39,551 nt of DNA from Cenarchaeum sp. SB0675_bin_21 (GTDB lineage: Archaea; Thermoproteota; Nitrososphaeria; Nitrososphaerales; Nitrosopumilaceae): assembly GCA_009843815.1 (NCBI GenBank), contig VYCS01000035.1:11283-50833 (forward strand). Direction: 5' to 3'. The notes beneath the pieces are model-generated. The model had not been told where the DNA came from and searched no databases. It worked only from the letters and a program-made list of their open reading frames with translations. Below are positions 32,869 through 35,011 of this stretch, piece by piece. The translations under genes and the position numbers were made by a program. Each line of letters starts with the position of its first letter. Position 1 is the stretch's first letter.

Positions 32869-32945
32869 CATGACATTATGATCATATGTTAGATTGAATC
32901 TATATTTTTTAGTCTATGATTTGATTCGTACCAAATAAGATGTAG

Positions 32946-33043
32946 TGCAGAAGGTGGGATTTGAACCCACGAACCCCTAAAGGAAAGGATTTCTTATGAT
33001 GATCTTGAGTCCTTCTCGGTTGACCGGGCTTCGATACCTCTGC
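32946..33043 (-). tRNA. tRNA-Leu(CAA) with a 13-nt intron
   Basis: The acceptor GCAGAGG (5' end at 33043) pairs with CTTCTGC, with discriminator A at 32946. The T arm is GTGGG, TTCAAAT, CCCAC. The anticodon stem AAGGA/TCCTT encloses 20 nt instead of 7. Removing 13 nt (32991-33003) after the base 3' of the anticodon leaves CTCAAGA, so the anticodon is CAA (33005-33007). A long variable arm (14 nt, TCCTTTAGGGGTTC) confirms a class II Leu tRNA. CCA is not encoded. The intron sits at the canonical 37/38 position and needs the splicing endonuclease. Confidence 0.9.
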
Positions 33044-33127
33044 AATATAGTTTGACATATTATGTTATATATCTGAAACCGCCAGCGGGGGCGTATCTCA
33101 CAGGGATAAGTTCCCCAAGATATTGTT

Positions 33128-33135
33128 AAATATAA
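33128..33135 (+). promoter_or_regulatory. TATA box of the GC-rich solute-binding protein gene
   Basis: AAATATAA is centred about 24 nt upstream of the ATG at 33155. The AT-rich archaeal promoter contrasts with the GC-rich coding sequence after it. Confidence 0.5.
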
Positions 33136-33154
33136 TCAAGAATACTACTTGCAT

Positions 33155-34825
33155 ATGAAGCCGCCCATCCGTACGTGGAACCGGCAATCCGACGTGATGG
33201 CGTGCGCCGTATTGGGGATGGTGGTAGCTATGATGGTGGTGGCGGTTGCCCAGGCGGCATCCCCGGACGGATACGGCTCGCATGCACCGCCGGCACACCA
33301 ACAGGGGGTACCGTCCTCCGGGGTGCAGTGCAACGAGCCCAGGGAGTTATACCTGGACGACTCGCGGCCCCTCTGTCTATTCCCTGGTACCGCTGATATT
33401 CTGATGTCCCGCGGGATTGATCTGGAGAGAGGTCCTATGCAGCCACCCGCCGCAATCCTGGGGCTGACCCCTGAAGAGCAGGCGTGGTTGGCAGAGCGCC
33501 CGGTGATCCGGGTGGCACACGACCCGGGATGGTTTCCGATAGAGTACGCCGACGAGCACGGCCAGATAGCCGGGGTCACTCTGCACTATATAATCAAGTT
33601 TGAGGAGCTCACCGGGGCCGACCTCCAGCCGGTTCTGACGGATGACTGGACGGGTGCCTTGGAGGCCATCCGGGATAGGGATGCTGATGCCATGTTCATG
33701 GTGGCGCACACGCCCGAGCGGTCCGAGTACATGGGGTTCACCAGCCCCCACCACACCCTGGAGACCAGGCTGGTGGCCGCCGAAGACAGACAGATGAGTC
33801 TGGACGAGCCCGGGCTACAGGTGATCACCATCCGTAACTACGAGATAGAGGACTGGCTGGATGAGAACCACCCAGACGTCGTGTACGTATCAGTGGACAG
33901 TTTTGAAGAGGGGTTGGCCCTGCTACAGCAGGGCGAGGCCGATGCCTTCGCCGCCACTTGGCCGGTGGTCCGCGCCACCGCCGAGCAGGAGGGGATGACC
34001 GTCTACAACGCCGGGCCCACCGGCCACTCGTACCCGCTCTCGGTGGGGTACCGCGGCGACCAGCCCGTCCTGGGGACCATCCTGCAGAAGGCGCTGGATG
34101 CCTCCCCGCCCCTGTTGGAGATCTTTGAGGGTACGCCGGGCCTGATGCTGACCGCCGAAGAGAAGACGTGGTTGGCAGAGCACCCGGTGATCCGGGTGGC
34201 ATACGACCCAGGATGGTTTCCGATAGAGTATCTTGACGAGTCAGGCATGCTGGCCGGCGCCGCTGGCAGATACATGTCAGAGTTTGAGAGGATCATCGGT
34301 GTCGACTTTCAACAGGTTCCCATAGATGACTGGTCACATGCCTTAGAGTCCGTTCGGGCGAGGGATGCCGACCTGGTCTTTCTGGCTGTCGAAACCGACT
34401 CCAGGTCCGAGTACATGGGATTCACCACCCCCCACTACACCATCGAGTCTGTCCTGGTGACCGCCCAGGAGATGCAGTTGGCCATGGACGAGCCCGGGCT
34501 ACAGGTGATCACCATCCGCGACTATGCCATAGAGGACTGGCTGGACGAAAACCACCCTGACGTCGGGTACGTATCAGTGGACAGTTTTGAAGAGGGGTTG
34601 GCCTTGCTTCAGCAGGGCGAGGCCGATGCCTTCGCGGGTGTCTGGTCGGTGGTCCAGGCCATCGCAGAGCGAGAGGGAATGACAGTCTACAACGCCGGGC
34701 CCACCGGGTACTCGTACGATTTGTCCGTCGGATATCGCAGCGACCAGCCCGTCTTGGGGGCCATCCTGCAGAAGGCGCTCTACACCATCCCTGCATCCGC
34801 GCTGGAGCGGATTCAGGGCGAGTAG
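33155..34825 (+). CDS. Secreted protein with two tandem periplasmic binding domains (BvgS-type VFT), GC-rich
   Basis: This is a 556-residue protein. It has a signal peptide (MKPPIRTWNRQSDVMACAV, hydrophobic 15-33, AQA cleavage near 34) and a short Cys-containing linker. Two family 3 solute-binding (Venus flytrap) domains of about 228 residues each follow. Each begins with LTxEExxWLAExPVIRVA, then PGWFPIEY, and has SEYMGFT, LQVITIR, EDWLDENHPDV and EEGLALLQQGEADAFA. This is the sensor layout of BvgS-like histidine kinases, yet no transmembrane, kinase or receiver part follows and the protein stops after domain two. It is probably secreted or loosely surface-bound. Base composition is far from its neighbours (44 G/C in 34021-34080), indicating recent transfer or a GC-rich source. 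The ATG at 33155 suits the promoter; a TTG lies two codons upstream. The ligand is unknown. Confidence 0.88.
   Translation: MKPPIRTWNRQSDVMACAVLGMVVAMMVVAVAQAASPDGYGSHAPPAHQQGVPSSGVQCNEPRELYLDDSRPLCLFPGTADILMSRGIDLERGPMQPPAAILGLTPEEQAWLAERPVIRVAHDPGWFPIEYADEHGQIAGVTLHYIIKFEELTGADLQPVLTDDWTGALEAIRDRDADAMFMVAHTPERSEYMGFTSPHHTLETRLVAAEDRQMSLDEPGLQVITIRNYEIEDWLDENHPDVVYVSVDSFEEGLALLQQGEADAFAATWPVVRATAEQEGMTVYNAGPTGHSYPLSVGYRGDQPVLGTILQKALDASPPLLEIFEGTPGLMLTAEEKTWLAEHPVIRVAYDPGWFPIEYLDESGMLAGAAGRYMSEFERIIGVDFQQVPIDDWSHALESVRARDADLVFLAVETDSRSEYMGFTTPHYTIESVLVTAQEMQLAMDEPGLQVITIRDYAIEDWLDENHPDVGYVSVDSFEEGLALLQQGEADAFAGVWSVVQAIAEREGMTVYNAGPTGYSYDLSVGYRSDQPVLGAILQKALYTIPASALERIQGE
33440..34807 (+). 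repeat. 684-bp internal tandem duplication in the binding-protein gene
   Basis: The two binding domains are offset by exactly 684 nt (33485 against 34169, and 33803 against 34487). Several stretches are identical at the base level, including a 37-nt run starting GTACGTATCAGTGG and a 32-nt run starting GACGAGCCCGGG. The spacer parts are more diverged. Confidence 0.85.
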
Positions 34826-34974
34826 AGTGGAACCTGACCAGAAGAAGAACCCACCGCCACCATCATACACGACATAGCAAGACAATCCGGCGGCCAGACT
34901 GTTCAGGTCGCGTCAGGTCACGAATTATGAAACGTTGTCGGTACAACTACAAAGTATGTAATACTATGAATATT

Positions 34975-35011
34975 TGTGGGAAAGCCCACATTATGTAAAA
35001 AATCAAAAAAG
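34975..35011 (-). terminator. T-tract and hairpin after the OB-fold gene
   Basis: Reading the minus strand after the stop at 35012, there is a T-rich tract (CTTTTTTGATTTTTTACATA). A perfect 6-bp hairpin then follows, TGTGGG, loop, CCCACA (34975-34990). The T-tract alone would suffice for archaeal termination. Confidence 0.5.

Follow-up and report, generated by a model that had tools for sequence, protein, structure and literature searches.

In the sensor kinases BvgS and EvgS, the periplasmic region consists of two consecutive SBP_bac_3 Venus flytrap (VFT) domains that follow a signal peptide, and among proteins of solved structure double VFTs occur in both sensors and importers. GlnPQ uses two consecutive SBP_bac_3 domains (SBD1-SBD2; 6h30) for uptake and carries them fused to its own ABC permease. 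The membrane c-di-GMP enzyme RmcA of Pseudomonas aeruginosa has one VFT, and this PBP domain (7ejg) is reported to recognise L-arginine (PMC9028604). Sponge ammonia-oxidising archaea (AOA) are reported to carry LivFGHMK systems together with multi-domain or tandem LivK proteins (PMC6790972, PMC7848895), in which extracellular binding domains of the PBP1 fold (ANF_receptor/Peripla_BP_6) are tandemly duplicated (PMC6790972). Finally, GrrP (TIGR04262) denotes SBP_bac_3 proteins that are called orphan in the name of the model.

The protein described here is encoded in an archaeal window (the whole stretch of DNA analysed, 39,551 nucleotides) from a host genome of 1.61 Mb, a draft in 48 contigs (G000), whose relatives are Nitrosopumilaceae. 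The gene and the parts of its product are as follows.

33155..34825, + strand: coding sequence of a 556-residue secreted tandem-VFT protein (complete ORF, Pfam)
33155..33259, + strand: signal peptide, residues 1-35 (the sole segment with mean hydropathy >1.6)
33299..33418, + strand: WING-49 (NF058652), a module with Cys residues that occurs in secreted proteins of the Nitrosopumilaceae (borderline at 26.2 bits in the genome search and 21.7 in hmmscan, cut-off 22)
33464..34108, + strand: VFT1, an SBP_bac_3 domain of the BvgS/RmcA type (350.9 bits against the family profile A1)
34148..34822, + strand: VFT2, of the same type (354.3 bits against profile A1; AlphaFold2 model)

The reading frame is complete, running from TTG at 33149 or ATG at 33155 to a stop at 34825, and a single Pfam family, SBP_bac_3 (PF00497), matched the protein twice (101.7 bits against a gathering cut-off of 26.4; E 3e-29). 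Its only hydrophobic segment lies at the N-terminus (approximately residues 12-35), with probable signal-peptide cleavage after AQA as judged by eye, and a hydropathy scan of the 556 residues found no lipobox, no C-terminal anchor and no second transmembrane segment. The mature protein is acidic (pI 4.25). There is no kinase domain, the stop codon coming straight after VFT2. A secreted double VFT of the BvgS type lacking a kinase had been proposed in a sequence-only reading of this DNA, and the Pfam matches, hydropathy and stop position bear this out. The protein is not, as that reading had it, exactly the outer half of BvgS, since residues ~49-88, between the signal peptide and VFT1, belong to WING-49. 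This module is clear in the homologues (35-59 bits), where the two Cys of the region are invariant; it was found in 29 of 61 relatives, nearly all Nitrosopumilaceae, and 14 control genomes gave no match at E 0.01. The architecture of signal peptide, WING-49, VFT1 and VFT2 is a new variant within a known fold family. With respect to gene conversion between the coding regions of VFT1 and VFT2, a 37-bp exact run was unusual (permutation p 0.006), whereas runs of synonymous codons were not (p 0.12).

We built an AlphaFold2 model of VFT2 on 20 family members, and it was confident (pLDDT 96.6, pTM 0.90). The closest solved single VFT was the RmcA PBP domain (TM 0.90, 32% identity), followed by VFT2 of BvgS (TM 0.86), and amino-acid solute-binding proteins (SBPs) including ArgBP were matched as well. 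The full-length model was poor (pLDDT 57.5, pTM 0.35), and we drew no inter-domain geometry from it; its best fold matches were BvgS and EvgS, with GlnPQ SBD1-SBD2 third. Unlike BvgS and EvgS, the window protein has neither a transmembrane segment nor a kinase, and it carries the N-terminal WING-49. The match to the GrrP profile was weak, and at 50 bits, far below the cut-off of 190, the window protein is not a member.

In an alignment of the binding sites, both window VFTs retain the classical carboxylate Arg but have Thr or Val in place of the classical Asp, followed by a near-invariant Trp. From amino-acid SBPs, we take the Arg to contact the ligand carboxylate and the Asp to contact the alpha-amino group. 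The loss of the Asp, which is shared with VFT2 of EvgS and sets both window VFTs apart from RmcA, where the residue is retained, leaves room for a ligand other than an amino acid. The pockets look conserved rather than decayed.

A protein search of 61 genomes detected a homologue 69% identical over its full length (79% within VFT1) in a GC-rich (62%) congener, G001, as well as the gene in Cenarchaeum-type genomes and a second, diverged member of the family in the host genome. By profile search, 7 of 250 Nitrosopumilaceae genomes, from 3 of 22 genera, contain the family. A pattern scan of 84,980 species, run with the narrower profile A2 rather than A1, returned no relative outside the Nitrosopumilaceae, and SBPs of other Thermoproteota reached 60-80 bits with the family profile, as against 180-354 bits for the family. 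The distribution is patchy, and lies mostly in sponge-type AOA. Our literature search for this Nitrosopumilaceae family found no description of it.

All members examined were of the secreted type and kinase-free, and their domains were variously combined: WING-49 with one VFT in G003 and G160, WING-49 with three VFTs in G024, and WING-49 with Cache and a VFT in G171. G024 also encodes a secreted protein of 4,053 residues (L028 4589-16747), with five intact VFTs, interleaved split VFTs and a PBP1-like stretch. It is built of five units of ~610 residues, each comprising an intact VFT and a VFT split by an insert of ~100 residues; a repeat-rich stretch and then a LivK-like PBP1 region follow. On contig 160 of G001 (L025 1903-3076), a gene for WING-49 and a single VFT has an in-frame TAG and lies beside a proteasome subunit gene, and is possibly a decaying paralogue. 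Contig 40 of the host genome encodes a protein that joins a LivK-type (PBP1) domain with two VFTs of the same family. There, three adjacent genes (L031 5783-11843) have raised GC (0.56, 0.53 and 0.51), and two of them encode predicted secreted binding proteins, one PBP1+VFT+VFT and one LivK-like. The VFT1 part at this locus seems to resemble contig 158 of G001 more closely than core genes do, suggesting that additional exchange has occurred.

The VFT gene in the window is solitary, with no transporter or permease gene adjoining it. PAAT permeases are the class normally paired with SBP_bac_3 proteins. Genome-wide, BPD_transp_1 was matched six times: by an Opp/Nik/Dpp-like pair, PhnE, a nitrate/sulfonate-type permease and a pair on C4. 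No PAAT permease was among the four typed matches, the C4 pair being left untyped, and the protein differs from GlnPQ in that the host genome yielded no such permease. A LivHM pair and DppBC are present.

Taken together, we favour, with a probability of roughly 0.55, a secreted tandem solute-binding protein that captures solutes at the cell surface, in preference to a signalling role. This preference rests on the LivK-type domain fused to two VFTs in the host genome, and on the presence of only two HisKA kinases among its four HATPase matches. The fusion is the best clue that the VFTs help to capture solutes on behalf of a shared importer. The tandem duplication of extracellular binding domains within the same archaeal group is a feature shared with the LivK proteins of sponge AOA, although those belong to a different family. 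A free binding protein, one of the roles put forward from the sequence, is supported to this extent as the likely role. In the mechanism we propose, the signal peptide would export the protein, which would probably be retained at the surface as WING-49, VFT1 and VFT2; retention via WING-49 is a guess. Each VFT would close on a small organic solute, most likely one bearing a carboxylate, and the acidic protein could concentrate this solute in the space under the S-layer. The solute would then be handed to a shared importer, for example LivFGHM or a Dpp/Opp system, which we propose because no PAAT permease was identified in the genome.

By both fold and sequence, the closest counterparts of the VFTs are the sensors RmcA, BvgS and EvgS and not transporter SBPs, and the gene comes without a permease of its own. 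Both features would suit a detached sensor module: once loaded with its ligand, the protein would dock on some other membrane-bound kinase or receptor, and its role would be signalling, not nutrition. Periplasmic binding proteins are known to dock on LuxQ or on chemoreceptors. A partner could be sought in L114, a HisKA kinase with N-terminal hydrophobic segments and an extracytoplasmic-looking stretch. However, none of the four HATPase proteins is encoded near the VFT gene, the arrays in which relatives carry several copies of this VFT fit bulk binding better than one-to-one signalling, and the gene has been gained patchily without a linked receptor. We therefore consider signalling by such a module rather unlikely.

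A role in host interaction, with arrays of secreted VFTs serving not to feed the cell but to bind metabolites of the sponge or to protect the cell as decoys, appears improbable. It would agree with a distribution that includes Cenarchaeum and GC-rich lineages, and with the 4,053-residue relative and its five intact VFTs and PBP1-like region. Against it, no adhesion or anchoring domain was recognised in the 556-residue protein, and the conserved appearance of the pockets is not that of decayed binding sites.

We then considered the ancestry of the tandem, using a tree of 44 VFTs, 24 of them thaumarchaeal, in which the bacterial sample was small and taken from plasmid records only, and which was unrooted with regard to the source of the archaeal clade. 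All 24 thaumarchaeal VFTs, including both from the window, formed one clade (support 99/99). Window VFT1 paired with VFT1 of the G001 homologue (100/99) and window VFT2 with its VFT2 (83/68), and this domain-by-domain pairing indicates that the duplication predates the split of the two genes. The nearest neighbours of the two window VFTs were one another and the archaeal VFTs of congeners, and in AU tests on this small sample a grouping with VFT1 or VFT2 of EvgS-type kinases was rejected (p 0.0045 for VFT1, p 0.0018 for VFT2). On these phylogenies the tandem pair is shown to have arisen inside the archaea. The nearest outside relatives by score are bacterial sensor VFTs, which may be the ultimate source of the archaeal clade, in an event older than the window gene.

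These results bear on the central proposal of the sequence-only reading, namely that a bacterial BvgS-type sensor was captured, lost its kinase half and was converted into a decoy or free binding protein. BvgS and EvgS ectodomains are indeed among the best matches by sequence profile as well as by full-length model, and the gene has high GC. Nevertheless, both VFTs sit in a single archaeal clade as close paralogues of one another and are not orthologues of a kinase VFT1 and VFT2, the N-terminal WING-49 is archaeal, and kinase-free homologues exist in three genera. For the sampled kinases, capture of a BvgS ectodomain is ruled out by the tree and AU tests, and we regard the proposal as largely refuted and very improbable. 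No match that would indicate phage or viral carriage was found in 50,697 phage records or in viral contigs, and viral fold matches were remote.

The foreign composition of the gene, which the sequence-only reading had also noted, was confirmed. Region 33155-34825 has a GC of 0.62 and a GC3 of 0.79, compared with a GC3 of 0.34-0.45 in the 21 other genes of the window. Scored as the per-codon log-likelihood under the host table minus that under the G001 table, the VFT gene gave -0.25, the 21 window genes +0.47 to +0.70 and 12 genes of G001 -0.24 to -0.59. Codon usage thus falls within the range of G001 and outside that of the host, and is foreign. Since the family member in G160 is at native low GC (GC3 0.40, region GC 0.36), high GC is not inherent to the family. 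Sponge AOA are reported often to have raised GC (PMC6790972, PMC7848895, PMC6697440).

The surroundings of the gene contain the following features.

32945..33043, - strand: type II tRNA gene, left border of a variable site (ARAGORN; Rfam RF00005, 40.6 bits)
33085..34972, no strand assigned: inserted lineage-specific segment (BLASTN borders against contigs of a second congener, G002; empty site in G001)
33125..33136, + strand: AT-rich archaeal TATA-like element, GTTAAATATAAT (sequence)
34921..34939, - strand: unpaired end of a terminal inverted repeat, GACAACGTTTCATAATTCG, from a dispersed element resembling a transposon or MITE (repeat matches in the host genome)

The spacing of GTTAAATATAAT suits a leaderless start at ATG 33155. 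The G001 homologue, on a contig of 63% GC, has a near-identical element, GTTAAATACAAT, upstream, the element common to the two genes being GTTAAATAYAAT; the promoter has therefore probably travelled with the gene. An AT-rich archaeal promoter had been recognised from the sequence and is present, but its occurrence in front of the G001 gene removes its value as a sign of conversion.

In BLASTN comparisons with G002, alignment of the left flank ended at 33084 and that of the right flank began at 34973, with ~79% identity outside the segment. The tRNA is conserved in G002 and, at 90% identity, in G001; ARAGORN gave it an unreadable anticodon call (aaga), and by eye it is Leu-like. On C17 of G001 the same flanking genes and tRNA are found with no more than ~100 bp separating the tRNA from the gene that follows, an empty site which, together with codon usage, rules out a native gene with a local GC peak. 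The G002 flanks lie near contig ends, and absence of the gene from that genome is accordingly likely but not certain. They carry a transposase-like fragment on one side and, on the other, a gene for a 944-residue TPR-repeat protein (contig 102, L064 13287-16121) at the same variable site as the window VFT gene.

Flanking and other genes are 57-75% identical to those of G001. The 69% of the VFT gene falls within this range of vertical inheritance, so that identity is no proof of transfer, and composition and the empty site carry the argument. It also follows that the immediate donor is not among the sampled genomes; G001 itself was rejected as donor at only 69% protein identity. On these grounds we strongly infer that the gene, together with its promoter, was recently transferred from a GC-rich congener into a variable site next to a tRNA. 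Of the origin suggested from the sequence, the GC-rich source is upheld by codon usage and the empty site, but the bacterial BvgS source is not. That reading had held that a relative with the gene at the same locus and of matching composition would speak against capture; in G001 the composition matches, but the homologue is at a different locus and the orthologous site is empty.

The region of 34921-34939 matched six other places in the host genome at 78-88%, two of the copies being bounded by inverted copies of the motif, and GACAACGTTTCATAATTCG itself has one match in the window, with 0.04 expected. It is possible that this repeat end is the right border or the vehicle of the insertion. No matching left end was found in the window, so that the repeat suggests a transposon vehicle without demonstrating one. 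The RNA fold of 34870-34990 was not clearly better than shuffles. Elsewhere in the host genome, dispersed repeats of 119 bp (L141 1502-1620) and 538 bp (L143 1014-1551) are bounded by inverted GACARYGTTTCATAATTYG motifs, and are probably an undescribed MITE-like element of the host archaeon.

An assembly chimera or contaminating contig piece, for which the sharp compositional break at both ends and the draft state of the genome might be cited, is hardly credible, and the sequence comparisons gave no sign of one. On a single 50.8-kb contig the flanks follow the gene order of G001 and G002, so that two misjoins would need to restore synteny exactly; the right border bears a repeat belonging to the host genome, and related GC-raised VFT genes occur elsewhere in it.

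Beyond the solute-capture role favoured here for the window protein, it is possible, though we put this tentatively, that sponge-type AOA have a modular surface system of VFT proteins without kinase or permease. In such a system, WING-49 would be joined to one or many VFTs, sometimes with LivK-type or Cache fusions and up to 4,053 residues in length; the genes would move between GC-rich and GC-poor species, and their products would capture or sense host-derived metabolites. Because its GC stands out, the VFT gene is a clear marker for exchange within one genus, between species rich and poor in GC. Ammonia oxidisers are usually regarded as autotrophs with a small repertoire for sensing and uptake. 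If the proposal is true, a laterally exchanged and expanding family of secreted binding proteins would provide a handle on the organic molecules that these archaea take up or read.
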